Part shown: positions 5,655 through 35,560 of the stretch, piece by piece
How the letters are laid out: the number at the start of each line of letters is the position of its first letter
Numbering within the stretch: the stretch's first letter is position 1
Assembly: GCF_012163155.1 (NCBI RefSeq)
Contig: NZ_JAAVUN010000011.1
Span: forward strand, 1-64,000
Source: Kocuria subflava
Lineage (GTDB): Bacteria; Actinomycetota; Actinomycetes; Actinomycetales; Micrococcaceae
DNA: 64,000 nt
Direction: 5' to 3'
The notes under the pieces: generated by a model
Told to the model about the DNA's origin: nothing
What the model saw: only the letters and a program-made list of their open reading frames with translations
Databases searched by the model: none
Translations under genes and position numbers: made by a program

Positions 5655-8464
<2,810 letters not shown>

Positions 8465-10121: not shown

Positions 10122-10523
10122 ATGACCCAACCCCCAGAGCTCAGCCCCCAAGAACTCGAACTCCTGCAGTCCATGTTCGACGCCGCCCGTGATGGCCGCA
10201 CCCAGTACCTGGCCTCAGCCGTGGACCAAGGCGTTCCCGTGAACCTGACCAACAGCAAGGGCGACACCCTGTTGAACCTGGCGTCCTACCACGAACATCC
10301 GGAGACGGTGGCTGCCCTGCTGGAGCGCGGTGCAGACACGGAACGAGTGTCAGACATGGGCTTCACGGCCCTGATCTGTGCCGTGTTCCGCGGCAACCAG
10401 GCCATCACCCAGATGCTGTTGGAGGCCGGCGCCCGTCAGGACACCGGCCACCACCACGCCCAGGCCGTGGCTCGCGAGTTCGGCCGCACTGCGGTGCTGG
10501 AACTGCTCGAAGCCAACGACTGA
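10122..10523 (+). CDS. ankyrin repeat protein
   Basis: 133 residues made mostly of ankyrin repeats: a first repeat around KGDTLLNLASYHEHPETVAALLERG and a second around MGFTALICAVFRGNQAITQMLLEAG, with degenerate ends. Ankyrin repeats mediate protein contacts; there is no catalytic domain or signal peptide. It is encoded opposite to, and between, two acyl-CoA synthetase genes that both point leftward. The partner is unknown. Its 3' end is 4 bp from the stop of the second synthetase. Confidence 0.88.
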   Translation: MTQPPELSPQELELLQSMFDAARDGRTQYLASAVDQGVPVNLTNSKGDTLLNLASYHEHPETVAALLERGADTERVSDMGFTALICAVFRGNQAITQMLLEAGARQDTGHHHAQAVAREFGRTAVLELLEAND

Positions 10524-10527
10524 CGGC

Positions 10528-12039
10528 TCAGTCCAGCACGATCTCCCGCTTGAGGATCTTGCCCGTGGGGCCCTTGGGCAGCGATTCCATGACCCGGTAG
10601 TGCTTGGGTCGCTTGTAGACGGCCAGGCCCTCACGCGCTGCGTGGCGCAGTTCAGTCACCACGGAATCGGCGTCCGCGCCGTCGTTGAGCACGATGCACG
10701 CGACCACGTCCTGTCCCACGGTGATGTCCCCCTGCCCCACCACGGCAGCCTCATGGACGGCAGGGTTTTCGTAGAGGATTTCCTCGATCTCGCGCGGGTA
10801 CACGTTGTAGCCGTTGTGCAGGATCATGTCCTTCTTGCGGTCCACGATGAAGAACCGGTCCGTCTGATCCTGGCGGCCCACATCCCCGGTGCGGAAGAAC
10901 TCCCCGCTGAATGACTTTGCGGTGATCTCCGGGAGGTTCCAGTACCCGGCCATCACAAACTGCCCACGCACCACGATCTCCCCGATCTCGCCGCGGGGAA
11001 CCTCTTGGCCGTCGTCGTTGAAAATGCGGACGTCAGCGCCATCGCAGGCCGTGCCGATGGAGCCGGGCACGCGGTCATTGACGGGGTGGTTGAAGCAGAC
11101 CACCGGGGAGGTTTCGGACAACCCGTAGCCTTCATACACCGTCACGCCGAACAGGGATTCGAATTCCTTGAGCACTTCCACGGGCATGGAGGCACCACCG
11201 GAAATGGCATTGACCAGGGTGGGATAGCTCTCCCGTTCTGCGCGCTTCAGGCTGTTGACGGCCACGAACATGGAGGGCACCCCCACAAACCGTGTGACGC
11301 CGTGGGCCTGAATCTGCTTGAGCACGGAGCGGGGCTGGAAGGCGGCGACGGCGCTGACGCATGCACCCACCGCAATCACTGCGTTGAGCACCACGGTCTG
11401 GCCGAACACGTGGAAGAACGGAAGGGCCCCCAGGAACACGTCCTGGGAGCGGTAATCGAACATGCGCGTGGTCATCCAGGCGTTGGAACTCAGGTTGTGG
11501 TGCGTGAGCATGGCCCCCTTGGGGGTGCCGGTGGTCCCGGAGGTGTAGAGCAGAACCGCAAGGTCGTCATCCACGCGCTGGACCATCTCCGGCGCATCAG
11601 AGCGGGCACCTTCGGCCACCTGATCAGTGTCCACCGTGGCAGCATCCAGCGTGATGACCTCAATGGACTCGTCCATGGTGGCCACCACCTCCCGCACGTG
11701 ATCGGCCATCACCTGGAACACCAACACGGCACTGACCTGGGCGTCACGGAACAGCCCCTCCAGCTCACGTCCCGTCAGCAAGGGGTTCAGCGGAACCACC
11801 ACGGCTCCAGCCTTGAGCACCCCGTAGTAGGCAACGGGCATAGCCGCGACGTTTGGGGAGATCAGGGCCACCCGATCACCCGGCTGAACACCCACCGCTT
11901 TGAGACGGGCATGCATGGCATCCGCCAGATGATCCAGCTGCTGGTAGGTGATCTGCTGGGAGTCGCTGCGCACAGCAATGTTCTGGGGATGCCGTTCGGC
12001 GGAACTTGTGAGCAGTGTGGCCAGGTTCGACACGGTCAT
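10528..12039 (-). CDS. acyl-CoA synthetase (AMP-forming, long-chain fatty acid--CoA ligase type)
   Basis: 503-residue ANL-superfamily ligase. Adenylate-binding motif LLYTSGTTGTPKGAMLTH, the GYGLSETSP motif, the GDVGRQDQTDRFFIVDR hinge and terminal PTGKILKREI are all present. The N terminus (SNLATLLTSSAERHP) parallels that of the neighbouring synthetase, supporting a duplication. Together the two genes interrupt the arginine cluster between argR and argG. Substrate not deducible from sequence. Confidence 0.9.
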   Translation of the reverse strand: MTVSNLATLLTSSAERHPQNIAVRSDSQQITYQQLDHLADAMHARLKAVGVQPGDRVALISPNVAAMPVAYYGVLKAGAVVVPLNPLLTGRELEGLFRDAQVSAVLVFQVMADHVREVVATMDESIEVITLDAATVDTDQVAEGARSDAPEMVQRVDDDLAVLLYTSGTTGTPKGAMLTHHNLSSNAWMTTRMFDYRSQDVFLGALPFFHVFGQTVVLNAVIAVGACVSAVAAFQPRSVLKQIQAHGVTRFVGVPSMFVAVNSLKRAERESYPTLVNAISGGASMPVEVLKEFESLFGVTVYEGYGLSETSPVVCFNHPVNDRVPGSIGTACDGADVRIFNDDGQEVPRGEIGEIVVRGQFVMAGYWNLPEITAKSFSGEFFRTGDVGRQDQTDRFFIVDRKKDMILHNGYNVYPREIEEILYENPAVHEAAVVGQGDITVGQDVVACIVLNDGADADSVVTELRHAAREGLAVYKRPKHYRVMESLPKGPTGKILKREIVLD

Positions 12040-24235: not shown

Positions 24236-24304
24236 GTGAGATCACCTCCTGTTGTTGAGATGACACCCCGTTGCTGGTGGTCTCAACAGTTGGCGGTGAT
24301 CTCA
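24236..24304. repeat. 69-bp structured repeat, left copy (flanks DUF559 gene)
   Basis: Matches the copy at 35713-35781 without gaps, 57 of 69 positions by eye. Inside are four 9-bp half-sites spaced exactly 19 bp: GAGATCACC, GAGATGACA, then GGTGGTCTC and GGTGATCTC in inverted orientation, so the whole can fold into nested stems. Its last three bases are the stop codon of the DUF559 pseudogene. Confidence 0.85.
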
Positions 24305-24882
24305 GCGGCGGACGGCCAGTTCCCGGCGCACCATCGCCACCAGCGCGTAGGGATGGCGGGTGACCATGGCCCAGTCCACGCGGATAACCCGCCACCCCGC
24401 GTTGGTCAGCGCCTTTTCACGACGAGGTTCGGCCCGGATGACCCCTGACGGATCTCCGAACTGGCCGGAATACTTGACCTCTCCGTCGAACTCCAGGATC
24501 AGCTTTTCTCTCTCCCAGGCGAAGTCCACCCGGAAGCGCTCCCCACCCACTGTGACCTGAAACGGGGGTACAAAGCCGGTCAGGTGGTTTTCCACCAGCA
24601 CCAAGCGGGTCAAGGTTTCGGCCACGGACTCGCTGCGTGGATCCGCAAGCTCAATGACCTGGCGCGCACGTGCAACTCCGCGCTTGGTGGTGGATCGACC
24701 GAGCTGCTCCACCAGAATCTCCCGGCTACCGTGGCCCTACATGAGGCGGAGGTACCCGTCGACCACCACCAGCCCCTCACGCAGAGGCAATTCGCGCGCA
24801 CAGTCGGCTGCGGTTCGGGCCAGCGTGGTGAGCCGAAAACCGTCAAACTGAGTCACGTCGGAATGCTCAATGGGCCACACCT
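24302..24882 (-). pseudogene. DUF559 protein, C-terminal part (gene split by element A)
   Basis: The C-terminal two thirds of a DUF559-type (restriction-endonuclease-like fold) protein. Reading from the insertion point on the minus strand: VWPIEHSDV, LARTAADC, then an in-frame TAG (24737-24739) after DGYLRLM. Reading continues in the same frame with ILVEQLGRSTTKRGVARAR, the nuclease-like strand FRVDFAWEREKLILEFDGE and the C terminus WAMVTRHP. The N-terminal third is at 35155-35560. The gene is therefore broken twice, by insertion and by a nonsense codon. Such genes are common in actinobacteria; their function is not established. Confidence 0.88.
24874..24882. repeat. 9-bp target-site duplication of element A, left
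   Basis: GCCACACCT directly abuts the TGTG end of element A at 24883 and is repeated at 35155-35163. Joining the flanks through one copy restores the DUF559 reading frame exactly (AAG GTG TGG CCC ATT). Confidence 0.93.
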
Positions 24883-24934
24883 TGTGACTTCGTCTGCTGA
24901 ATGGCGGGGTTCTTCGGTCGCTTCGTGGCGGGGT
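24883..24934 (+). repeat. terminal inverted repeat of element A, left end
   Basis: Begins TGTGACTTCG. TGGCGG occurs at TIR positions 20-25 and 44-49, the same two positions as in the other three ends of elements A and B; these are probable transposase-binding repeats. The stop codon of the fused transposase overlaps its inner edge. Confidence 0.9.
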
Positions 24935-26916
24935 CAGGTGACACCGATGACCAGGGTGCTCTGTGCGGCTTCGATGACGTCGTTGGTGATGGTGTCGAGT
25001 TCGTTGATCTTCAGGACCCGCTGGATCTGGGGGAAGAGGCGTTCGAGGAGCCGGAAGTTGCCGCGGGTGATCCGTGCGATGGCTGCGATGGCTTGGGCGT
25101 CGGTGAAGTCGTCGGGGTCGAGGGTCTTGCCGAGGGATCGCCAGTGTCGCTCGAGGACGAACAGCAGTTCGTCTTGTCCCAGGGGCCGGTACTGGTGGGC
25201 GAAGCCGACTCGGCTGTAGAACTGGGGGTAGTGGCTGAACTGCTTCTCCAGGCCGGGCATGCCGATCAGGATCAGGGCGATGTCGTCGCGGTCGTAGCGA
25301 TCGCGCAGCAGTTCCAGAGCGGCGGGACGCAGTCGTTCGGCCTCGTCGACGATGATCAGCTCCACGTAGTTCCTGCCGTCTCGCCATCCCCAGGCCTCGG
25401 GAGTGGCCGTGCCGGGAGGTACGAGGTGCTGCTCGATGCACATGTTGGTGCGGGTGATGGCTTGGGTCAGCTCGTCCTTCAGGGTCCGCGGGGTGGTCAG
25501 CACGCTGGGGGTGTAGAGCACGGTGCGGCTCCGGTTCAAGGCGGCGTAGATCTTGGCGTCGTTGTCGGAGCACGGCCCCCAGTAGGTCAGCAGGTCATGA
25601 GCCTTCTCGTAGTGTGCGTAGCGGCGCGCGGAGAGTGTCTTTCCTACGCCGGCTGATCCGAAGCACAAACCGATGGTGTGCCCGCGGCGCACGGCCTGGT
25701 CGTGGTGCTCCTGGTTGACGGCCTTGCAGAGGAACTCGTCGTGGTCGAAGACGCGGATCTCGGTGATGTCGCGGGGGTCGTAACGGATCACGACCGACTG
25801 TCCGACGTAGCCGGCCAGGGTCGGGGAGACGTAGCGCAGGCCCTGGAAGCGGATGCCATCGCGGCGCACGACGCGGGTCTTGGCCACGGTCAGCAACAGT
25901 CCGTCGAGAGCTTCCAGGCTCTCGGGCATGCGGGGCAGCCAGCCCTCGGCGATCCACGCGCTGCGCGGGGAGGTGCCGATCTCGCTGTGCGTGCGGTCGT
26001 TGTAGGTGGCCACGAACGCCTCCAGGGCGCTATAGAGGGCGGCCAGGGACAGTTTCGGTGTCGGCCAGGGGTGCCCTTCGGTGATGTGTCCGGGCAGGTC
26101 GGCCAGCAGCTCGGTGTTGACGGTGCCGAAGAACCGCTCGATCTTGCCCCGTCCCTGGGGTCGGGCGACGGTGGAATGGATCAGCCGGATGTGGAGGTCG
26201 ACGGCGGTGCCGGCGAGCTGGTGGCTGATGAAGTCGCTGCCGTGATCGACGTAGAGCACGTCCGGTAGGCCGCACATCGGCCAGGCCGGGTCGGCCTTGT
26301 GCCAGATCGCTTGGCGCAGCGCCAGGGCGGTGTTCATCGCCGACGGTGCGCCCAGGAAGACTGTGTAGCCGCAGACCGCCCGGGAGCAGTCGTCGAGGAT
26401 CGTTGTCAGCCATGGCCGTGCAGGCTTGCCGTCGGTGCCCACCACCAGGATGTCGAGCATGGTGTGATCGGATTGCCACATCGCGTTGGGCAGCTCTGCT
26501 TGCCGGCGTAGCACCAGCTCGTGCTTGTCGCGGTAGGACGCTGCGCCCTCCAGGGCGAGGGTGACCATGCCGGGATCCAGGGTCCGCACGATGTCCCACA
26601 CCACCGAGTAGGAGGGGACCGGCCATCTCCGGGCGGCGCAGATGCCGGTGACTTTGCGGTGGATCGTGGCGATGGCCGGCCGCGGCTTGCTCAGTGCCAG
26701 GCCCTCGATCAGGTGGACGAGGTCGGGCGGAAGGCGGCGGGAGCCGGTGTCCGCTCGCGAGGCTGTCTCCAGTCCGGCGTAGCCGTCGGCGCGGTAGCGG
26801 GCGTGCGAGCGCTCCAGGGTCCGCAGCCCAACATCGGTCTCGCGAGCTAAGCGCGCGAGGGGCACCTGGTCCTCGACGTGGAGCCTGAGGATTCGCCACC
26901 GCGCTCGAGCGTCCAC
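24934..26916 (-). CDS. fused DD35E transposase - AAA+ ATPase (TniA-TniB type) of element A
   Basis: A 660-residue single open frame. Residues ~1-60 are helix-turn-helix; an rve/DDE core follows with D150 (WQSDH), D224 (VDHG) and E260 (GKIE), exactly 35 residues between the last two. A Mu-type beta-barrel region runs to ~395. After a short linker comes an AAA+ ATPase with Walker A GSAGVGKT (420-427) and Walker B IIVDEAER (521-528), ending in a TniB/TnsC-like C-terminal domain. In element B these are two genes (486 + 307 residues). The fusion lacks about 75 residues of the transposase tail and about 50 of the ATPase N terminus. GTG 26916 is 8 bp after the resolvase stop. Confidence 0.88.
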   Translation of the reverse strand: MDARARWRILRLHVEDQVPLARLARETDVGLRTLERSHARYRADGYAGLETASRADTGSRRLPPDLVHLIEGLALSKPRPAIATIHRKVTGICAARRWPVPSYSVVWDIVRTLDPGMVTLALEGAASYRDKHELVLRRQAELPNAMWQSDHTMLDILVVGTDGKPARPWLTTILDDCSRAVCGYTVFLGAPSAMNTALALRQAIWHKADPAWPMCGLPDVLYVDHGSDFISHQLAGTAVDLHIRLIHSTVARPQGRGKIERFFGTVNTELLADLPGHITEGHPWPTPKLSLAALYSALEAFVATYNDRTHSEIGTSPRSAWIAEGWLPRMPESLEALDGLLLTVAKTRVVRRDGIRFQGLRYVSPTLAGYVGQSVVIRYDPRDITEIRVFDHDEFLCKAVNQEHHDQAVRRGHTIGLCFGSAGVGKTLSARRYAHYEKAHDLLTYWGPCSDNDAKIYAALNRSRTVLYTPSVLTTPRTLKDELTQAITRTNMCIEQHLVPPGTATPEAWGWRDGRNYVELIIVDEAERLRPAALELLRDRYDRDDIALILIGMPGLEKQFSHYPQFYSRVGFAHQYRPLGQDELLFVLERHWRSLGKTLDPDDFTDAQAIAAIARITRGNFRLLERLFPQIQRVLKINELDTITNDVIEAAQSTLVIGVT

Positions 26917-26923
26917 GACGCAC

Positions 26924-27520
26924 CTACTGCAAGGCGTTCTCGCGCCCGCGCTCGGCGCGCTGAAGGGCGCGGTAGACCGTGGAGCGGCCCACGCTGAACA
27001 GCTCGGCCAGCTCGCCCACGGTGTGCTCGTCGGCGGCATGTAGCTGGACGAGGTGAGCTTCTTGCCGGGGGGTGAGTTTCGGTGACTTCCCGCGCAGCCG
27101 GCCCTTGGCCTTGGCAACCTTCATCCCCTCGCGGGTGCGGGCACGGATGAGGTCGGCTTCGAATTCGGCGACCATCGCCAGCACGTTGAACAACAGTTTC
27201 CCCATCGGGTCGGTCGGGTCGTACACCGATCCGGCGATGCTCAGCTTCACTTCCCGCGCCGCGAGGTCGTCGGCGATCTGGTGGGCATCACGGACCGAAC
27301 GCGCCAGCCGATCGAGCTTGGTGACCACGAATGTATCGCCGTCCCGACACGCTGCCAGCGCCTGCTGCAGGCCCTCACGGTCGGCGTTGCGGCCCGTGAG
27401 CCCGTGATCGACGTAGATGCGCTTGGGATCGACGCCGAACGCCGCGAGTCCGTCACGCTGCGCGGTCAGGTCCTGCTCGTCGGTGGAGACTCGGGCATAG
27501 CCGACCTTCAAGGGGGACAT
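26924..27520 (-). CDS. serine recombinase (resolvase) of element A
   Basis: 198 residues, resolvase/invertase family. The catalytic serine is in GYARVSTDEQDL; the KLDRLARS active-site helix follows near residue 68, and a C-terminal helix-turn-helix (HTVGELAELFSVGRSTVYRAL) binds DNA. Presumed to resolve cointegrates made during replicative transposition, like TniR or BinL. The gene precedes the fused transposase by 7 bp, so they form one operon. Its upstream region, the expected res site, is where element B inserted. Confidence 0.93.
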   Translation of the reverse strand: MSPLKVGYARVSTDEQDLTAQRDGLAAFGVDPKRIYVDHGLTGRNADREGLQQALAACRDGDTFVVTKLDRLARSVRDAHQIADDLAAREVKLSIAGSVYDPTDPMGKLLFNVLAMVAEFEADLIRARTREGMKVAKAKGRLRGKSPKLTPRQEAHLVQLHAADEHTVGELAELFSVGRSTVYRALQRAERGRENALQ

Positions 27521-27600
27521 GCTCCCCAGTGTGTCATATAGCCTCCCTTCACCGGACAGTTCACCGGACGGGTCTTACGGGACAGCCCGCCAGGCGTGCC
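27521..27600 (-). promoter_or_regulatory. probable res/promoter region of element A resolvase
   Basis: The 80 bp between the resolvase start and the element B target duplication contain two direct copies of TTCACCGGAC (27549-27558, 27560-27569). A related inverted GTCCGGTGA occurs on the other side of element B, about 25 bp past 33951. This is where a resolvase recombination site would be expected. No function was tested; the assignment is by position and repeats. Confidence 0.4.
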
Positions 27601-27609
27601 GTCGTTCCT
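27601..27609. repeat. 9-bp target-site duplication of element B, left
   Basis: GTCGTTCCT directly abuts the TGTG end at 27610 and is repeated at 33942-33950. Confidence 0.93.
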
Positions 27610-27659
27610 TGTGAACCGCATCGATAAGTGGCGGTGTTCTGACGGAGCTAAATGGCGGC
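27610..27659 (+). repeat. terminal inverted repeat of element B, left end
   Basis: Begins TGTGAACCGC; TGGCGG occurs at positions 20-25 and 44-49. The central GTGGCGGTGTTCTGAC is shared with the right end of B. Confidence 0.9.
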
Positions 27660-27740
27660 ATCGAGGTCTTGCGTCCCGATCGGAGTCGTCGGGCCGGCCG
27701 AGCTCGAGGTGATCGACGTGTTGATCGCTCTCGGGCGACT

Positions 27741-27764
27741 GTCCCACTTCCTTGGTAGTGGGAC
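27741..27764. promoter_or_regulatory. small hairpin upstream of element B resolvase (candidate res region)
   Basis: GTCCCACT (27741-27748) pairs with AGTGGGAC (27757-27764). About 90 bp further on, an imperfect dyad GTACGGAA / TTCCGGTAC (27851-27872) sits just before the resolvase start at 27882. Either may be a recombinase-binding subsite. The 220 bp between the left end and the resolvase hold no gene. Confidence 0.4.
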
Positions 27765-27881
27765 GGCCCGCGTGGGGATCCTTGCCCGATGTGCACGATC
27801 GGCGATTCCTGTACCAGAACTTGGACCAAAAGTGCTGAACCATTTAGGTCGTACGGAACCGACTTCCGGTACGCTGGGCGC

Positions 27882-28514
27882 ATGGAATTGGGCTACGCGC
27901 GGGTCTCGACGGCCAAACAGGACCTCGACCGGCAGATCGATGCCCTCCGGCAGGTCGGGATCGCCGCCGAGCGGATCTATGTGGACAAGAAGTCCGGGGC
28001 CACCACGGAGCGTCCCGGGCTGACCGCGGCGCTGGCCTACGCCCGGGAGGGTGATGTGATCGTGGTGCACACCCTGGACCGGCTCGGGCGCACGGTGCGC
28101 GACACCTTGAACCTGATCCATGACCTCGCCGAGCGGGGGGTGGGGGTGCGCAACCTGGCGGACCCGATCAAGGTGGACTCCACCAATCCGAGTGATCCGA
28201 TGGCGCAGTTGGCGGTGGTGCTGCTGGCGTTGTTCGGGCAGATGGAGCGCACCTACACCCTCGAGCGGGCTGCTCATGCCCGGTCGGTGGCCGCGGCGAA
28301 GGGCCGGCGGATCGGGCGGCCTACGGTGGTGGATCCGGACAAGCTGGCCTACGCGGCGCATCTGCGCGAGAGCGGGCACACGATGGCGGAGATCGTGGCC
28401 AAGACCGGGATCACGCGCACCAGTCTCTACCGTCACCTCCCGCCGCGGTCCCCGGAGCCGGTGACGGCCGGACCGGTCACCGCCGCCGAGCCCGAGCCCG
28501 GTCCGGCGGACTGA
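27882..28514 (+). CDS. serine recombinase (resolvase) of element B
   Basis: 210 residues. Catalytic serine in GYARVSTAKQDLDRQ, conserved VVHTLDRLGRTVRD helix, and a C-terminal helix-turn-helix (HTMAEIVAKTGITRTSLYRHL) followed by a Pro/Glu-rich tail. ATG 27882 chosen because the family's N terminus MELGYARVS begins there; the frame upstream to 27789 runs through the candidate res region. Presumed cointegrate resolution function. First gene of the resolvase-transposase-ATPase operon. Confidence 0.93.
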   Translation: MELGYARVSTAKQDLDRQIDALRQVGIAAERIYVDKKSGATTERPGLTAALAYAREGDVIVVHTLDRLGRTVRDTLNLIHDLAERGVGVRNLADPIKVDSTNPSDPMAQLAVVLLALFGQMERTYTLERAAHARSVAAAKGRRIGRPTVVDPDKLAYAAHLRESGHTMAEIVAKTGITRTSLYRHLPPRSPEPVTAGPVTAAEPEPGPAD

Positions 28515-28524
28515 CCCAGGTGGG

Positions 28525-29985
28525 GTGATGGTGGTGGTGCAGCTGGGTCCGCAGGAGAGAGCGGCATTGTTGCGCCAGCACCTCGACGAGGGGGTGCCGC
28601 TGACCCGGCTCGCCGCCCACGCCCAGGTCTCGGTCCGCACCCTGCAGCGCTGGGCCGCCGAATACCGGGCGGACTCCTCCGCGGCCGGCTTGCAGCGCAA
28701 GGCCCGCAGCGACCGCGGCCAACGCCGGCTGCCTGCGGAGCTGATCGCGGTGATCGAGGCCCTGGCGCTGCGCCGCCCGGCGCCGACGACCAGGTTCATC
28801 CACCGCCGGGTGTGCGATCTGGCCCCGGAGCGCGGCTGGGCACCCCCGAGCTACTCGAGCGTGCGCAGCGTGATCGCCGCGATCGACCCCGGGCTGCGCA
28901 CCCTGGCCCTGGAGGGAGACACCGCCTACCGGGACCGATACGAGCTGGTGCACCGCCGGTCGGCGGTGAGGCCCAATGAGCAGTGGCAGGCCGACCACAC
29001 CCTGCTCGACGTGGCGATCCTCGACAACCGGGGGCGCCCGGTGCGGCCGTGGCTGAGCGTGATCCTCGACGACTACTCCCGCGCGGTCGCCGGCTACACC
29101 GTCTTCACCGGCGCCCCGAATGCCGAGCAGACCGCCCTGGCCCTGCACCAGGCCGTGCGAGCCAAGCCCGACCCGCGGTGGCCGGTCCAGGGGTTGCCCG
29201 AGGTGCTCTACAGCGACCACGGGGCCGACTTCACCAGCACCCGGCTGGACCGGGTCTGCCTGGACACCCACATCCGGCTCATCCACTCCCGCGTCGGGGT
29301 CCCGCAGGGGAGGGGCAAGATCGAACGCTTCTACGGCACGATCACCACCGAGGTGCTCCCGCACCTGCCCGGGCACATCCCGCACGGCACCGGCGGCACC
29401 CCCACCTCACCACCTGCCCTGAGCCTGGAGCAGCTCGAGGCAGTGGTCCAGCGCTACCTGATCGAGGACTACCACGCCCGGGTGCACTCCGAGACCGGAC
29501 AGGCCCCCGCCGCCCGCTGGATCGGGGCCGGGTGGATCCCGCGCACCCCGGCCCGGGGCGAGGATCTCGACCTGCTGCTGCTCACCGCTGCGACCACCCG
29601 CATCGTCCAGCGCGACGGCATCCGCTTTCAAGGCACCCGCTACATCTGCCCGGTGCTGGCCGCCTACGTCAGTGAGACCGTGACCATCCGCTACGACCCC
29701 CGCGACGCCGGCGAGGTGCGCGTCTACCACCAGGACACCTACCTGTGCCGGGCGATCGCCCCCGAACTGGCCGCTGAGACCATCACCCTCCAACAGCTGC
29801 AGCAGGCCCGGGGCGCCCGACGCGCCGCGCTCAAGCAGCAGCTGCGCGCCCGGCGCAGCCTCGCCGACGCCCTGCCCGCCGACGACCGCTGGGCACCACC
29901 ACCCGCCCCGGCGCCGGGCCCGACGGCAGACCCGCCGGCGGAGCCGGCGCCCCGACACCGGTTGCGGACCTATGCCACCGACTGA
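28525..29985 (+). CDS. DD35E transposase (TniA-like) of element B
   Basis: 486 residues. N-terminal helix-turn-helix, then an rve catalytic core with D157 (WQADH), D231 (SDHG) and E267 (GKIE), 35 residues between the last two, followed by a Mu-C-like barrel and a ~75-residue Arg/Pro-rich tail. In TnsB/TniA proteins the C-terminal tail contacts the ATPase; that tail is missing from the fused homologue in element A. Start could be GTG 28525 or ATG 28528. Overlaps the ATPase gene by 14 bp. Confidence 0.93.
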   Translation: MMVVVQLGPQERAALLRQHLDEGVPLTRLAAHAQVSVRTLQRWAAEYRADSSAAGLQRKARSDRGQRRLPAELIAVIEALALRRPAPTTRFIHRRVCDLAPERGWAPPSYSSVRSVIAAIDPGLRTLALEGDTAYRDRYELVHRRSAVRPNEQWQADHTLLDVAILDNRGRPVRPWLSVILDDYSRAVAGYTVFTGAPNAEQTALALHQAVRAKPDPRWPVQGLPEVLYSDHGADFTSTRLDRVCLDTHIRLIHSRVGVPQGRGKIERFYGTITTEVLPHLPGHIPHGTGGTPTSPPALSLEQLEAVVQRYLIEDYHARVHSETGQAPAARWIGAGWIPRTPARGEDLDLLLLTAATTRIVQRDGIRFQGTRYICPVLAAYVSETVTIRYDPRDAGEVRVYHQDTYLCRAIAPELAAETITLQQLQQARGARRAALKQQLRARRSLADALPADDRWAPPPAPAPGPTADPPAEPAPRHRLRTYATD

Positions 29986-30895
29986 GCCCGACTCCTCCCG
30001 GAGCCTGCTGGGCAAGGACGACGACGGCCGGCGCTTCCTCTCCGGCACGTTCGGGGAAATCGCAGCCTTGGGCCCACCCCCGGACCCCGCATCACCCCTG
30101 CTCCTTCCCACCCGGGAGCACCGCCGTTTCACCGAGTTCGCCGACACCGTCCGCGCCCACCGCTACATCGGCCTGTGCTGGGGCCCACCCGGGGTCGGCA
30201 AGACCCTCTCGGCCCGCCACTACGCCGGGGCCCCGCAATGGGAGCAGTGGCAAAGAGACCTGGGCGAGGACCGCGAGCCCGGCCCCATCCCTGAGCAGGT
30301 CCTGCAGGCCCGCACCGCGCTGTGGACCCCGACCGTCACCGCCAGCCCCCGACAGGTCGACCAAGCCCTCCCGCGGGCCTGCCAACAGATCTCCTACGCC
30401 ATCGACTACCACCACCACGGCCGCGTCGACCCGTTCGTGCACCCCGACTCGCGTTCCTCCGGGCTCACCGAGCTGCTCATCATCGACGAGGCCGACCGGC
30501 TCAAGACCACCGGCCTGGAACAGGTCCGCGACTACTACGACCGCCACACCCTCGGGGTGATCCTCATCGGAATGCCCGGCATCGACAAACGCCTGGCCCG
30601 TTACCCCCAGCTCTACAGCCGTGTGGGCTTCGCCCACGAATACCGCCCCCTCACCCCCGAAGAGCTCACCGCCGTCCTGAACCGCCGCTGGCACACCGAC
30701 GGACTCGCCGGCGAGGACGACGAGTTCACCCAGGCGGTCGCGATCGCCACCATCGCCCGGATCACCGGCGGCAACTTCCGTCTCGTCGACCGCCTCCTCA
30801 CCCAGATCCAACGCATCCTCACGATCAACCAGTTGGCCACCGTCACCCCCGAAGTGGTCGAAGCCGCCCGCGAGTCACTCCTGATCGGTCACTGA
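29972..30895 (+). CDS. AAA+ ATPase (TniB/TnsC-like) of element B
   Basis: 307 residues. Walker A GPPGVGKT at 71-78, Walker B LLIIDEADRLK near 170, sensor-like segment VILIGMPGIDKRLARYPQLYSRVGFAHEY and the C-terminal helical domain GGNFRLVDRLLTQIQRI. Such ATPases select target DNA and activate the transposase. Start ATG 29972 lies inside the end of the transposase gene, indicating coupling. There is no third target-selection gene (TniQ/TnsD) in the element. Confidence 0.92.
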   Translation: MPPTEPDSSRSLLGKDDDGRRFLSGTFGEIAALGPPPDPASPLLLPTREHRRFTEFADTVRAHRYIGLCWGPPGVGKTLSARHYAGAPQWEQWQRDLGEDREPGPIPEQVLQARTALWTPTVTASPRQVDQALPRACQQISYAIDYHHHGRVDPFVHPDSRSSGLTELLIIDEADRLKTTGLEQVRDYYDRHTLGVILIGMPGIDKRLARYPQLYSRVGFAHEYRPLTPEELTAVLNRRWHTDGLAGEDDEFTQAVAIATIARITGGNFRLVDRLLTQIQRILTINQLATVTPEVVEAARESLLIGH

Positions 30896-31023
30896 GCACA
30901 CGGGCCGGCCACCAGCTCCTGAGATCCACCGGCCAGGCAATCGCCTCTGGCAGCGACTCCTCGAAAGGGCCCCCGGGTCTGGGGCACATACGGTCGTGCA
31001 CATGACATTGCCGCGGTGACGTC

Positions 31024-31055
31024 TTGACCTTCCTCTTCAGGGGAAGGTGCAGGCT
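31024..31055 (+). promoter_or_regulatory. MerR-type operator/promoter before merA
   Basis: TTGACC (31024-31029) is followed, about 20 bp later, by a CAGGCT -10-like hexamer. The spacer carries the dyad ACCTTCC / GGGAAGGT characteristic of MerR, CueR and ZntR family promoters, whose over-long spacer is untwisted by the metal-bound regulator. It sits 70-100 bases before merA. The 128 bp before it (30896-31023) contain nothing that I recognise. Confidence 0.82.
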
Positions 31056-31123
31056 GGGCACAGCACAGCACCGCACACAGACGGCCCGTCGGGGCCTTCA
31101 TCACGGACTTACGGAGGCCGGTC

Positions 31124-32569
31124 ATGCCTGAGACGGGAACGCACGAAGTGGACCTGGCGATCATCGGTTCCGGCGGTGGTGCGTTCGCCGCCGCGATCCG
31201 GGCCACCAATCTCGGCAAATCAGTGGTGATGATCGAGCGTGCCACGGTCGGGGGCACCTGCGTGAACACCGGGTGCGTGCCGTCGAAGGTGCTGCTGGCC
31301 GCCGCCGAGGCCCGCCACGTGGCGCTGGACGCCACAGGACGGTTCCCCGGTCTGAGCACGTCGGCCGCCGGGGTGGACATGCCCGGGCTAATCGTCGGCA
31401 AGGACGCGCTGGTGGAGGGAATGCGCTCGGACAAGTACCTGGATCTGATCGCCGACTACGGCTGGGAACTGGCCACCGGCGAAGCGGTGTTCACCGGCAC
31501 CGCCGAGGATCCGGCGCTGGAGGTCACCGGAGCCGACGGTTCCTGCCGCCGGGTGCGGGCGGCCCACTATCTGGTGGCCACCGGCTCCACCCCGATCGTC
31601 CCGGAGATCGAGGGTCTGGATCAGGTGGAGTATCTGACGTCGACCACGGCCATGGAGTTGGACGAGGTGCCGGAATCGCTGCTGATCATCGGTGGCGGGT
31701 ACGTGGGCCTGGAGCAGGCTCAACTCTTCGCCCGCCTGGGCTCGATGGTCACCATGGTCGTGCGGTCCCGGCTGGCCTCCCATGAGGAACCCGAGGTCTC
31801 CCGGACCCTGAGGGGCGTGTTCGCCGAGGAGGGCATCCGGGTGATCCCCCGGGCCACCGTCTCCTCCGTGACGCCCGACCGGGACACCGGGGAGGTGGTG
31901 GCCACCGTCACGGGCCCGGGCGGGCAGGACACCCTGCGGGCGGGCCGGCTCATGGTCGCGGTCGGGCGCCGTCCGGTCACCGAGAACCTGGGCCTCGGCT
32001 CGGTCGGGGTGGACACCGGGGCGCGCGGGGAGATCCTCGTCGACGCCCGGATGGCGACCTCGAATCCGAAGGTGTGGGCGGCCGGGGATGTGACCGGGCA
32101 CCCCCAGTACGTCTACGTGGCCTCGGCCCACGGGGTCACCGCGGTGGAGAACGCCTTCCACCACACCGGCCAGCAGATCGACTACACCCACCTGCCGCGG
32201 GTCACTTTCACCTCCCCGGCCATCGCGGCGGTGGGCATGACCGACCAGCAGGCCCGGGAAGCCGGCCTCCGGTGTGAATGCCGGGTGCTGCCCCTGGAGT
32301 ACGTGCCCAGGACGCTGGTCAACCGTGACACCCGCGGGTTCGTGAAGATCGTCGCCGAGGCCGAGACTGGGCGGATCGTGGGTATCACCGCGGTGGCCAA
32401 GGACGCCGGGGAGCTTGCCGCGGCCGGGGTCTACATCTTGTCCGCGGGCATGACGGTGGATCAGGTCTCCACCCTGTGGTGCCCGTACCTGACGATGGCC
32501 GAAGGCCTCAAGATCGCCGCCCAGTCCTTCCGCACCGACGTCTCCAAACTCTCCTGCTGCGCCGCGTGA
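31124..32569 (+). CDS. merA: mercuric reductase
   Basis: 481-residue flavoprotein disulfide reductase that reduces Hg(II) to Hg(0) with NADPH in the cytoplasm. Redox cysteines C46 and C51 in GGTCVNTGCVPSK, NAD-binding IIGGGYVGLEQAQ, FAD-binding WAAGDVTG and the vicinal C-terminal pair CC at 478-479 that hands mercury to the active site and distinguishes MerA from lipoamide dehydrogenase. It lacks the N-terminal heavy-metal-associated domain, as in many short MerA forms. No merT/merP transporter or merB lyase gene is present in the element. Confidence 0.95.
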   Translation: MPETGTHEVDLAIIGSGGGAFAAAIRATNLGKSVVMIERATVGGTCVNTGCVPSKVLLAAAEARHVALDATGRFPGLSTSAAGVDMPGLIVGKDALVEGMRSDKYLDLIADYGWELATGEAVFTGTAEDPALEVTGADGSCRRVRAAHYLVATGSTPIVPEIEGLDQVEYLTSTTAMELDEVPESLLIIGGGYVGLEQAQLFARLGSMVTMVVRSRLASHEEPEVSRTLRGVFAEEGIRVIPRATVSSVTPDRDTGEVVATVTGPGGQDTLRAGRLMVAVGRRPVTENLGLGSVGVDTGARGEILVDARMATSNPKVWAAGDVTGHPQYVYVASAHGVTAVENAFHHTGQQIDYTHLPRVTFTSPAIAAVGMTDQQAREAGLRCECRVLPLEYVPRTLVNRDTRGFVKIVAEAETGRIVGITAVAKDAGELAAAGVYILSAGMTVDQVSTLWCPYLTMAEGLKIAAQSFRTDVSKLSCCAA

Positions 32570-32644
32570 GGATCGGTCGGCCTCGAGCATCGAGCACAGC
32601 CGGGAGCTGACGACTCAGCAGGCACTGTAACGGAAGGGGAAGTC

Positions 32645-33389
32645 ATGGCCCAGAGGTTGATCGTCATCGGTGGGGACGCCGCGGGGATGAGCGCGGCCTC
32701 CGCCGCCCGCCGCCAGCTGCCCCAGGACCAGTTGGAGATCGTGGCCTTCGAGCGGGGCCACTACACCTCGTATTCGGCCTGCGGGATCCCGTACTTCATC
32801 GGCAAGGACGTCGCCGACACCACGGAGCTGATCGCCCGTACCCCGCAACAGTTCCGCGACCACCACGCCATCGACGCCCGCACCGGTCACGAGGTCCTGG
32901 AGATCGACCTGCACCGCCGCGCCGTGCTCGTGCGCGACCTGACCGCCGGCCGGGAGGCCTGGGAGGGTTTCGATCAGCTCATGGTCGCCACCGGGGCCAC
33001 CCCGGCCCGCCCGCCACTGCCCGGGATCGATGCGGCCGGTATCCACGGGGTGCAGACCCTCGACGACGGCCTGGCCCTGCGGGCGGTGCTGGAGCGGGAC
33101 CGGCCGGGCCGGCTACTACCCCGGGGCCAAACCCATCCGCACCAAACTCATCGCCGAACGCGGCACCGGACGGCTGCTCGGCGCCCAGATCGTCGGGGAA
33201 GAAGGCGCGGCCAAGCGCATCGACGTGCTCTCCGTGGCGCTGTGGCACGAGACCCCGGTGGAAGAGCTGCTCAACATCGACCTCTCCTACGCCCCGCCGT
33301 TCTCCCCGGTGTGGGACCCGGTGCTCATCGCCGCGCGCAAGACCTGGCAGGCCGTCGAGACCGACCGCGCCCGCACCGAACCCGGATGA
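32645..33389 (+). pseudogene. CoA-disulfide reductase-like flavoprotein, internally deleted and frameshifted
   Basis: The N-terminal frame (32645 to about 33100) gives a FAD-binding domain with LIVIGGDAAGMSAAS and the single active-site cysteine in SACGIPYF (C46), up to LMVATGATPARPPLPG. The C-terminal frame (about 33090-33389) gives the dimerisation domain, GRLLGAQIVGEEGAAKRIDVL and SYAPPFSPVWDP. The NAD-binding middle domain of ~200 residues is missing and the two halves are in different frames. Intact homologues are about 450 residues. The gene is therefore probably dead, unless the short N-terminal product has a role. Confidence 0.85.
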
Positions 33390-33430
33390 CCACCGGCCCC
33401 TCCAGGGGCAGGCAGTGCCCTGCCCCCGGA

Positions 33431-33452
33431 GCCTTCCTCTACCGTGGAAGGC
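33431..33452 (+). promoter_or_regulatory. operator-like dyad before the MerR-type regulator
   Basis: GCCTTCC (33431-33437) and GGAAGGC (33446-33452) form a perfect 7-bp dyad with an 8-nt spacer, 32 bp before the regulator start. The arms resemble those in the merA promoter, so the same regulator may control both. Confidence 0.65.
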
Positions 33453-33483
33453 CACAGACCAGTCCAGGATCGAGGTGCGCACC

Positions 33484-33873
33484 GTGCGGATCGGTGAAGC
33501 GGCCGCAGCCGCCGGCATGACCACCAAAGCCCTACGGTTCTACGAACAGCACGGGCTGCTGCCCCCGGTGCACCGCGGCCCCAACGGGTACCGCGACTAC
33601 CCACCCGAGGCCCTCGCCCGCCTGCAGTTCATCCGCCGAAGCAAGGCCGCCGGACTCAGCCTGGCCGAGATCCGGAACATCCTGCAGATCCGCGACGCCG
33701 GGCAGGCCCCCTGCGCCCACGTAGCCGCACAGCTCGCCCAGCAACTCACCGACCTCGACCAGCACATCGCTGAGCTCACCGCCCTGCGGGCCTCCGCGGC
33801 CGAGCACTACCAGGCCGCCTCCCAAGGCGACCCCACCCAGTGCGATCCCGCCCAAATCTGCAGCTACCTCTGA
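33484..33873 (+). CDS. MerR-family heavy-metal-responsive regulator
   Basis: 129 residues. The N-terminal winged helix begins VRIGEAAAAAGMTTKALRFYE and is followed by the dimerisation helix. The likely metal site is formed by C77 (APCAHV), C120 and C126 (QCDPAQIC), the spacing seen in Zn/Pb/Cu/Hg-type MerR proteins. The short CX5C loop differs from the CX8C loop of classical MerR, so mercury specificity is inferred only from linkage to merA. GTG 33484 is supported by GAGGTG upstream; GTG 33475 is an alternative. Confidence 0.85.
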   Translation: MRIGEAAAAAGMTTKALRFYEQHGLLPPVHRGPNGYRDYPPEALARLQFIRRSKAAGLSLAEIRNILQIRDAGQAPCAHVAAQLAQQLTDLDQHIAELTALRASAAEHYQAASQGDPTQCDPAQICSYL

Positions 33874-33891
33874 GCCCACAGCCGCACCACG

Positions 33892-33941
33892 GCCGCCAAA
33901 TACCTCTGTCAGAACACCGCCATTCACCGTCGACAGTCACA
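33892..33941 (-). repeat. terminal inverted repeat of element B, right end
   Basis: On the minus strand begins TGTGACTGTC. TGGCGG at positions 20-25 and again (TTTGGCGG) at 44-49. Matches the left end of B at 37 of 50 positions. Confidence 0.9.
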
Positions 33942-33950
33942 GTCGTTCCT
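33942..33950. repeat. 9-bp target-site duplication of element B, right
   Basis: GTCGTTCCT, identical to 27601-27609. Immediately followed by TCGATAAGTAGCGGTGG (from 33952), which resembles the inside of the left end of element B. Confidence 0.93.
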
Positions 33951-34054
33951 CTCGATAAGTAGCGGTGGTGTCCGGTGAGGGTTCCCCTTACGGGCATGCG
34001 ATCTGGGCTGACGCCTGTGACCGAGTGTTCAGTGCGCGCTGTATAGTTCAGTTC

Positions 34055-34414
34055 ATGCTGACTATTGCTTCGCGTCTCGACGTGATGAACCGCCTGGGTC
34101 GTGCACTGGCCGACCCCACTCGATCCCGGATCATCTTGACCCTGCTCGACCATCCCGCTTACCCGGCGGAACTGGCCCGAGATCTGGACCTGACACGCCC
34201 GAACGTGTCCAACCACCTGGCATGCCTGCGCGATTGCGGGATCGTCGTCTCCGAGCCCGAGGGTCGTCGGACACGATATGAGATCGCCGATTCGCACCTG
34301 GCGCAGGCGCTGACGGCACTGGTCGATGCCACCCTGGCAGTGGACGAAGACGCCCCGTGCATCGATCCCGCCTGCTCGCTTCCCGGATGCGACGCAGCTG
34401 GGGAGGGCGCATGA
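34055..34414 (+). CDS. cmtR: cadmium/lead-sensing ArsR-family repressor
   Basis: 119 residues. Sequence pattern GRALADPTR, LTRPNVSNHL, CLRDCG closely follows Mycobacterium tuberculosis CmtR, and the three Cd(II)/Pb(II) ligand cysteines are at the same numbers, C57, C61 and C102; an extra C107 follows. A TATAGT -10 element (34042-34047) lies 7 bases before ATG 34055, suggesting a leaderless transcript and an operator overlapping the start. Stop overlaps the transporter start (ATGA). Confidence 0.92.
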   Translation: MLTIASRLDVMNRLGRALADPTRSRIILTLLDHPAYPAELARDLDLTRPNVSNHLACLRDCGIVVSEPEGRRTRYEIADSHLAQALTALVDATLAVDEDAPCIDPACSLPGCDAAGEGA

Positions 34415-35004
34415 TCCTCACCTCGGTCTTGCAGGCGATGGGCCTGTTCGCAGCGACCAACATCGACGACATCATCGTGCTCTCCCTCTTCTTCGCGCGA
34501 GGGGCAGGCCAGCGCGGCACTACCGCCCGCATTCTGGCCGGCCAGTACCTCGGATTCGCCGGCATCCTCGGTGCCGCGGTCCTGGTGACCATCGGTGCCG
34601 GAACATTCCTGCCCTCGGCAGCCATCCCGTACTTCGGTCTCATCCCTCTGGGCCTCGGCCTCTGGGCCGCATGGCAGGCCTGGCGCGGAGACGATGACGA
34701 CGAGGCCAAGGTTGCCGACAAGAAGGTCGGCGTGTGGACAGTCGCAGGCGTCACCCTTGCCAACGGCGGCGACAACATCGGCGTCTACACCCCTGTCTTC
34801 CTCAGCGTGGAACCTCTCGCAGTAGTCGCCTACTGCATCGTCTTCCTCGCGCTCGTCGCGGTCCTGGTGGCCCTGGCAAAGTTCGTCGCCACCCGCCCCC
34901 CGATCGCCGAAGTGCTCGAACGCTGGGAGCACATCCTCTTCCCCATCGTTCTCATCGGCCTCGGCATCGCGATCCTCGTCAGCGGCGGAGCCTTCGGACT
35001 CTGA
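34411..35004 (+). CDS. CadD-family cadmium resistance transporter
   Basis: 197-residue inner-membrane protein with about six hydrophobic segments. The first contains LFAATNIDDIIVLSLFFARG, matching the N-terminal Asn-Ile-Asp-Asp motif of CadD; a later TLANGGDNIGVYTPVF segment is its internal counterpart, and a short acidic cytoplasmic loop (DDDDEAK) lies between the halves. CadD proteins confer Cd(II) resistance. ATG 34411 overlaps the cmtR stop, so regulator and transporter are coupled. Cargo of element A. Confidence 0.92.
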   Translation: MILTSVLQAMGLFAATNIDDIIVLSLFFARGAGQRGTTARILAGQYLGFAGILGAAVLVTIGAGTFLPSAAIPYFGLIPLGLGLWAAWQAWRGDDDDEAKVADKKVGVWTVAGVTLANGGDNIGVYTPVFLSVEPLAVVAYCIVFLALVAVLVALAKFVATRPPIAEVLERWEHILFPIVLIGLGIAILVSGGAFGL

Positions 35005-35102
35005 CGTAGCGGCAGCGATCCAAACGGCCCCGACCGGGCGCACCCATCTCGGTTCAGACCGCGACACCTACCTGCAGCCAGTCCTGCGTGATCGCGGCAA
35101 CA

Positions 35103-35154
35103 AGACCGCCACGGAGCGCTGCAAAAACCCCGCCACCAAGCGAACGAAGCCACA
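35103..35154 (-). repeat. terminal inverted repeat of element A, right end
   Basis: On the minus strand begins TGTGGCTTCG. TGGCGG at positions 20-25 and 44-49; 38 of 52 positions match the left end. The 98 bp between the cadD stop and this end hold no gene. Confidence 0.9.
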
Positions 35155-35163
35155 GCCACACCT
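35155..35163. repeat. 9-bp target-site duplication of element A, right
   Basis: GCCACACCT, identical to 24874-24882 and part of the interrupted DUF559 gene. Confidence 0.93.
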
Positions 35164-35560
35164 TGCCAACCACGGGCCGCGCGGTTCGCCTTCTTCCTCC
35201 CCCGTTACCGGAGGTCACTTGCGGCTTGGGCGGAACCTTCAGGACGGGAAGTCGCCACAGCAACGCCGCGGAGGCCAGGCAGAAGACGGGAGGTTGGGGC
35301 GAGGTCTTGTCCACTGCATAGTGCCTGGCCAAGGACCTTGCCCACGGTGGCAACGATTCCCACAGTGCAACGCTCACCCAGGCGCCACGTGAGACCCGTA
35401 GCAGGCCCGTGGCTTCATCCACACCGTCAGCATTGGCACGCGGTGCTCGGCCCCATCGGCTGCGCACTTGAGCAGTGGTCAAAATGGAGTCCGGGGTCAG
35501 GTGGCGTGTACCGGTTGAACTTACGGTGGGTGCCTGCGGGACGGGATACGTAGTGGCCAT
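35155..35560 (-). pseudogene. DUF559 protein, N-terminal part (gene split by element A)
   Basis: From ATG 35560 this frame encodes about 135 residues: a Thr/Pro-rich start, an AbiEi-like N-terminal DNA-binding-type segment (TTAQVRSRWGR, LLRVSRGAWVSVALWE) and VFCLASAALLWRLPVLKVP. It is then cut at ...VVGKVW by element A. The continuation is at 24882 and downward on the same strand, in the same frame. Upstream lies the right copy of the 69-bp repeat. Confidence 0.88.

Follow-up and report, generated by a model that had tools for sequence, protein, structure and literature searches.

A mercury transposon nested in a cadmium transposon of Kocuria subflava: two Tn552-group elements and a predicted res target

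The first 64,000 nucleotides of contig NZ_JAAVUN010000011.1 of Kocuria subflava (RefSeq assembly GCF_012163155.1), referred to here as the window, carry a transposon with predicted cadmium genes (element A) that is interrupted by a second transposon with predicted mercury genes (element B). The window is part of a 102-kb contig in a 3.03-Mb genome of 284 contigs. Judged from sequence, A and B are two transposons of the Tn552 group, each encoding a serine resolvase, a DDE transposase and an AAA+ ATPase, without TniQ. Our reading, which we hold to be very probably correct, is that A arrived first, that B then inserted into the res region of A, and that the group duplicates its targets with a loose stagger. 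The evidence consists of the element ends and their duplications, empty sites in relatives, the family placement of the transposases, the adjacency of insertions to res and the repeated use of the same positions.

Nested elements, their ends and empty sites

Element A occupies 24883-35154 and is flanked by a perfect 9-bp direct repeat, GCCACACCT, at 24874-24882 and 35155-35163. Element B occupies 27610-33941, with the perfect 9-bp direct repeat GTCGTTCCT at 27601-27609 and 33942-33950, and by these coordinates lies entirely inside A. Each repeat word occurs twice on the plus strand of the window, and the chance of an exact 9-bp match at fixed ends is 4^-9 per element. The inverted ends match at 37 of 50 bases in A and likewise in B; all four start with TGTG and have TGGCGG at positions 20 and 44. 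A first-pass annotation made from the letters of the window had given the same coordinates, TGTG ends, 9-bp repeats and nesting, all of which were exactly reproduced. It had also listed a resolvase, a DD35E transposase and an ATPase in both elements; the domain matches agree, with the transposase and ATPase genes of A fused into one. The features are as follows.

24302..24882, minus strand: chromosomal DUF559-type gene, 3' part, broken by A, with an additional in-frame stop (Pfam PF04480 over cut-off; L224 homologue continuous)
24874..24882, no strand: left duplication of A, GCCACACCT (sequence repeat)
24883..24932, plus strand: left end of A, TGTG and two TGGCGG sub-sites (sequence)
24934..26916, minus strand: A, fused transposase and ATPase open reading frame, 660 aa (rve, Mu-transpos_C and AAA_22 in one frame)
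26924..27520, minus strand: A, serine resolvase (PF00239)
27521..27609, plus strand: left part of A's predicted res region, entered by B; the word ACCGGAC is repeated in it (sequence)
27601..27609, no strand: left duplication of B, GTCGTTCCT (sequence repeat)
27610..27659, plus strand: left end of B (sequence)
27882..28514, plus strand: B, serine resolvase (PF00239)
28525..29985, plus strand: B, DDE transposase of TnsB/TniA type (rve and Mu-C domains)
29972..30895, plus strand: B, AAA+ ATPase of TniB/TnsC type (PF13401; weak ShTnsC match, E 7e-4)
31124..32569, plus strand: B cargo, MerA mercuric reductase (TIGR02053 above cut-off)
32645..33389, plus strand: B cargo, remnant of a pyridine-nucleotide-disulfide oxidoreductase, CoA-disulfide-reductase-like below cut-off (domain search; longer form in L036)
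33484..33873, plus strand: B cargo, MerR-family regulator, metal not assigned (PF13411; no NCBIfam cut-off reached)
33892..33941, minus strand: right end of B (sequence)
33942..33950, no strand: right duplication of B, GTCGTTCCT (sequence repeat)
33951..34054, plus strand: predicted res region of A, right part, and cmtR upstream region (joined to the left part in L034)
34055..34414, plus strand: A cargo, CmtR Cd/Pb sensor (NF047906 above cut-off)
34411..35004, plus strand: A cargo, CadD cadmium transporter (PF03596 over cut-off; TIGR00779 below cut-off)
35105..35154, minus strand: right end of A (sequence)
35155..35163, no strand: right duplication of A, GCCACACCT (sequence repeat)
35164..35560, minus strand: A-broken chromosomal gene, 5' part (no Pfam domain; L224 comparison)

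The functions of the metal genes are predicted from protein family. In the transposase of B the D-35-E spacing fits the invariant D231 and E267. A near-identical copy of B at locus L036 has about 640 bp more in the oxidoreductase gene, lost from B at 33104-33112; the junction of this deletion lies in a short shared word.

Insertions of relatives were collected by a pattern for the ends. It gave 89 unique pairs of ends, of which 81 were kept once locus L035 and the pairs at contig edges had been removed. For 93 transposase rows the pattern gave no pair, among them L041, in which a looser scan found an 8-bp duplication. For 77 of the 81, selection was by end pattern and inverted-repeat match, regardless of duplication. 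The other four were selected partly by duplication and are counted outside the 77 and inside the 53 duplicated insertions used below. The 106 ends of these 53 insertions, A and B included, give the consensus TGTGACTttCagCGcTAaaTGGCGGgGTTCTggCggCGCTcaGTGGCGGt. The pattern itself prescribed TGT followed by G or A and some of the first sub-site, which accounts for part of the conservation at these bases; the second sub-site was free. Two sub-sites per end would fit two transposase-binding sites.

Empty sites were found for both elements. Locus L034, on one contig of a genome of the same genus (G120), carries A without B, with 97.8% identity over 3931 bases, at a different site from A and with its own 8-bp duplication, ACAACGCC. 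The target word of B is single in L034, with one mismatch, and 214 of 216 bases around the site are identical. For A, a homologue of the target gene at L224 is uninterrupted across the site (68% identity over about 900 bases); L224 is the one that spans it among the compared loci L224, L225, L226 and L231. It was also checked whether the 9-bp words were already duplicated at the empty sites: that of B is single in L034 and the site of A is uninterrupted in L224. On the evidence of these two loci, the duplications of B and A come from insertion, and the earlier proposal of nesting by transposition is borne out by the duplications and the empty sites of relatives.

Insertion at res regions and duplication length

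B is located 90 bp upstream of the resolvase start of A, in the region predicted to be its res. The first-pass annotation had passed over this position, which explains the nesting: B would lie there because elements of the group often insert at res beside serine-resolvase genes. Among the 53 duplicated insertions, 21 are found upstream of a foreign serine-resolvase gene that points away, at a distance of 43-183 bp, and in 16 of the 21 the end upstream of the transposase is nearest to the resolvase. Random points in the same flanks score upstream of a resolvase gene in 31 of 15,900 cases (0.19%). Four of 28 insertions without duplication also adjoin a resolvase gene. Such res hunting is already described for Tn552 in passages of PMC3276174, and Tn5053 elements also insert in a preferred orientation, as far as PMC7765201 describes them.

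The same positions were used repeatedly. In genome G061, an outer A-type element with the 8-bp duplication CCGCCGGG (read from the flanks) is interrupted in its res region by 9590 bp inserted at the word GTCGTTCCT, with a 9-bp duplication (C44, 111936-121525; L232/L233). At L036, a copy of B with 99.9-100% identity over the matched parts borders GTCGTTCCT in the opposite orientation. At L115 (Enemella), another element lies in the res of a resolvase 99% identical to that of A, 72 bp from the resolvase gene start, with the duplication CAGCCCGCC. Another res was cut at one common position by the elements of L038, L040 and L041, which are inserted there in both orientations and have duplications of 8, 9 and 8 bp; the downstream regions are 83-86% identical. 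It could be argued that B entered A by chance and that its position is a coincidence, since in the neighbourhood of A itself no resolvase gene was detected and insertion elsewhere does happen. The 21 of 53 insertions against 0.19% of random points speak against coincidence, as do the G061 and L036 elements, which meet an A-type res at one and the same word, and the L115 element close by. We rejected chance nesting on the comparison with random points and consider it extremely improbable; the nesting of B in A is best read as res-site targeting without TniQ.

The G061 insert has a left end of B type (L042-like) and a right end of A type, and in its B part it shares 99.88% identity with the L042 element. 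This mixed-end insert suggests that ends of different group members can pair. Homologous recombination between two B-type copies, rather than transposition of a hybrid unit, is a possible origin that we favour less: the high identity would make recombination between copies easy, but two insertions at GTCGTTCCT would still be required, and a single hybrid transposition is simpler. The copy at L036 has no duplication. One of its flanks is half of A's res and the other a different res-like sequence (1-167, 7144-7364); the two possibly result from a res-res rearrangement.

The first-pass annotation had proposed, from the two 9-bp duplications, a separate branch with a wider stagger. Exact duplications of at least 5 bp were found in 49 of the 77 insertions and none in 28. 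Their lengths were 5 bp in 1, 6 bp in 9, 7 bp in 10, 8 bp in 13 and 9 bp in 16. In controls, duplications of at least 5 bp appeared in 0.27% of 5852 swapped flanks and in 54 of 4312 cases with the right end shifted within the locus. The lengths were compared with a 55-row transposase tree containing 48 of the 53 duplicated insertions, four Tn552-type and three TniA-type rows, from which identical and short proteins were dropped; L220 and L222 were used in the tree only, not for ends, and the row labels TniA and Tn552 were assigned from neighbours and annotation. A, B, their relatives and Tn552 fall on one side of a 100/100 branch and the three TniA-type outgroup rows on the other. A and B belong to different clades of the group that includes Tn552.

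Lengths vary among close relatives. The near-identical transposases of L060, L174 and L181 go with 7, 6 and 8 bp, and the close transposases of L147, L169, L173 and L179 with 8, 7, 6 and 6 bp; L034 has 8 bp versus 9 bp for A. In the clade of B, 9 bp is found in 8 rows, 8 bp in 3 and 7 bp in 1, the last chosen partly by duplication. Length classes were slightly more clustered on the tree than shuffled labels (28 changes; a number as low in 1 of 200 shufflings), a result to which near-copies and the labels Tn552 and TniA contribute, and none of the length classes forms a single clade. The controls, two copies of Tn552 and a Tn552-type element from plasmids of Staphylococcus epidermidis, gave 6, 6 and 8 bp. 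When TniA-type L216 and L217 were run for duplication length no convincing ends were found, and the 5-bp value for this type was taken from print; L219 likewise gave no convincing ends. Targeting of res had no effect on length (mean 7.71 bp, n=21, versus 7.69 bp, n=32).

A separate branch that cuts with a 9-bp stagger would agree with the 9 bp of both A and B, with 8-9 bp in 11 of 12 rows of B's clade and with 9 bp being more frequent than any other length (16 of 49). A fixed value is contradicted by 33 of the 49 duplications. The different clades of A and B, the 7, 6 and 8 bp of L060, L174 and L181, the 8 bp of A's sister L034 and the Tn552-type copies also speak against the branch. The duplication table and the tree led us to reject the separate branch, which is very improbable: the group spans 5-9 bp, and what stands of the 9-bp stagger is the prevalence of 8-9 bp in B's clade. 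The homologue with a 5-bp duplication that had been named as contrary evidence was seen once among the 49 (L149).

Two loci of relatives need separate mention. The L098 contig, labelled Vibrio cholerae strain 35D, contains a transposon region of actinobacterial kind, which over 11 kb shares 94% identity with L104 (Microbacterium); this genome is likely mislabelled or contaminated. At L139 (3655-13727, Curtobacterium) inverted sequences outside the element are nearly identical to each other, which may reflect a duplication or an assembly artefact.

The fused transposase-ATPase gene of A and the search for TniQ

Compared with L147, 231 bases between the transposase and ATPase genes of A are replaced by one, a net 230-bp deletion that brings the two genes into one frame. 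It costs the transposase about 58 residues at its tail and the ATPase about 20 at its start. Among the aligned unfused relatives whose tail is complete, most have an L-x-x-Y motif at its end (by eye). Fusion in frame without a stop was found in 2 of 198 neighbouring transposase/ATPase pairs (a count that includes loci fetched twice from two collections), namely A and L034. The deletion is a new finding, and the fusion is rare. As an exact 33-base word the junction was absent from the viral contigs searched, and in a literature search of titles and abstract openings no transposase-TnsC fusion was described among the matches listed.

L034 carries the identical junction. A and L034 differ in both site and duplication, so that one or more moves took place after the fusion, unless the deletion arose twice; it is possible that the fused copies moved with help in trans. 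We lean towards the view that the fused gene is simply broken and that an intact relative moved the fused copies. In ShCAST the TnsB tail recruits TnsB to TnsC and its loss stops transposition, according to the part of PMC9371665 that describes it, and the fusion has lost residues of both the transposase tail and the ATPase start. In addition, the L034 resolvase gene is frameshifted and split over two frames (10178-10763), A has serine at a tryptophan position kept by the other 10 of 11 aligned transposases (L034 keeps the tryptophan), and the mixed ends of the G061 insert, one of B type and one of A type, suggest that elements recognise each other's ends. Against a broken gene, the Pfam domains of the fused protein are nearly full-length with the D, D and E residues kept, the junction is common to two sites, and an unfused A-type copy was not found in the genome of the window (in 284 contigs) or in G120. 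A comparison of A, L034 and unfused relatives yields too few changes, or too mixed a set of them, to distinguish a working from a drifting gene.

A TniQ model had no match in the genome of the window, in a run in which 14 control genomes also had none. A second run found TniQ in 6 of 14 genomes or records: it lies directly beside TniB in two of the three TniA-type plasmid records, and in one Arthrobacter plasmid it is far from the studied transposase; the other three are the genomes G225, G206 and G196. In the searches no match was obtained in the genome of the window (G000), G120, G061, G274, G168, one Tn552 record and a Rhodococcus plasmid. The earlier statement that TniQ is missing therefore holds for the genome of the window, including the run that detected TniQ elsewhere, and as far as gene content tells, neither A nor B brings a TniQ along with its transposition genes. 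The review PMC11406308 ascribes res targeting of Tn5053 to TniQ with the word "presumably", in the part that treats it.

In the order of events that we propose, A would have entered a chromosomal gene first and B would have entered A later, directed to its res region as a member of a group that often chooses res next to serine-resolvase genes and strongly favours particular bases there. The resolvase-bound res would be read by the ATPase/transposase pair and not by TniQ, and loose strand-transfer spacing would give duplications from 5 or 6 to 9 bp. Transposition may be replicative with cointegrate resolution, a resolvase being present, and the fused copies of A would have moved by themselves or in trans. 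A bolder version seems unlikely to us: that res is recognised by the ATPase/transposase pair without any TniQ and with a flexible 5-9 bp spacing, and that the single-chain transposase-ATPase of A still transposes, the covalent link replacing the tail-to-ATPase contact.

Several points weigh against the reading that we propose. No adjacent resolvase gene was detected for 32 of the 53 duplicated insertions, A included; in one case, L120, the resolvase neighbour points the opposite way; and 28 of the 77 end pairs have no duplication. Insertions may predate the present host. A TniQ gene is present elsewhere in G225, G206 and G196, which hold the res-associated L038, L041 and L036, and may help in trans there; the third TniA-type record (L216) also had no TniQ match. 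In the tree the outgroup branches are long, and the position of Tn552 within the group is weak (80/56 at the fork joining Tn552 to A's side).

Family placement and known systems

The profile of alignment A1, which includes the transposase of B, matches ShCAST TnsB (7svw) at 1.6e-64, and its nearest solved relatives by profile are ShCAST TnsB and other TnsB proteins. The transposase of B is matched by 824 plasmid records, 386 of them from Staphylococcus. The S. epidermidis copies show the Tn552 layout of blaZ-blaR1-blaI, recombinase, transposase and ATPase (in one Tn552 copy the transposase is without annotation), and the Tn552-type element has fosD in place of bla. In all three controls the ends start with TGT and, judged by eye, contain two spaced sub-sites; a second resolvase gene lies less than 200 bp outside the element. 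In a search of plasmids for near DNA no record reached 80% coverage of the left part of A or of B, and no Tn552-like transposon of Kocuria or other actinobacteria was described among the listed matches of a literature search of titles and abstract openings.

A large TniQ-free group at repeated res positions makes it directly testable what reads the resolvase-res complex, and these positions are natural repeated targets. With 5-9 bp found in a single group of transposases, 5 bp as the mark of all Tn7 relatives needs qualification. Targeting of res would explain the stacking of metal-resistance genes in nested islands, and the fused gene of A is a ready test of the way in which transposase and ATPase have to be coupled.

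IS481 is the best NCBIfam model for the transposase, with a score below its cut-off. IS481 elements are not known to have a Mu-C domain or an ATPase partner. With the TnsB-TnsC systems of Tn7 and CAST, A and B share distant transposase homology and weak ATPase homology; these systems differ by the 5-bp duplication and the TniQ/TnsD target selectors described in PMC11406308, neither of which was found for A or B. Tn5053/Tn402 (TniABQR) elements are, as far as PMC7765201 describes them, also res-site hunters with mercury cargo, nested in the res of other transposons in a preferred orientation. They differ by 5-bp duplications and TniQ (PMC11406308 and PMC7765201, in the parts that treat them), again neither found for A or B; the TniA-type transposases, compared from plasmid records rather than from Tn5053's own sequence, show 28-32% identity to B and lie outside the group. 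Tn552 of Staphylococcus (p480, p271 and the bin resolvase) has, according to passages of PMC3276174 and to the control copies above, the same resolvase-transposase-ATPase core without TniQ, TGT ends with two spaced sub-sites, res hot spots and rearrangement at res. A and B agree with it in the placement of the transposase, and in the adjacent ATPase and resolvase genes without TniQ. The group agrees with it in the res hot spots; A itself is not at a res site. Unlike B, Tn552 carries beta-lactamase cargo, its transposase is about 41-42% identical to that of B, and its duplication is given in the same passages as 6 bp, or 10 bp in two plasmid families, versus 7-9 bp in B's clade. Repeated res positions without a TniQ of their own, a variable stagger and a rare fusion make A and B informative in detail; in kind they are ordinary res hunters of the Tn552 group.

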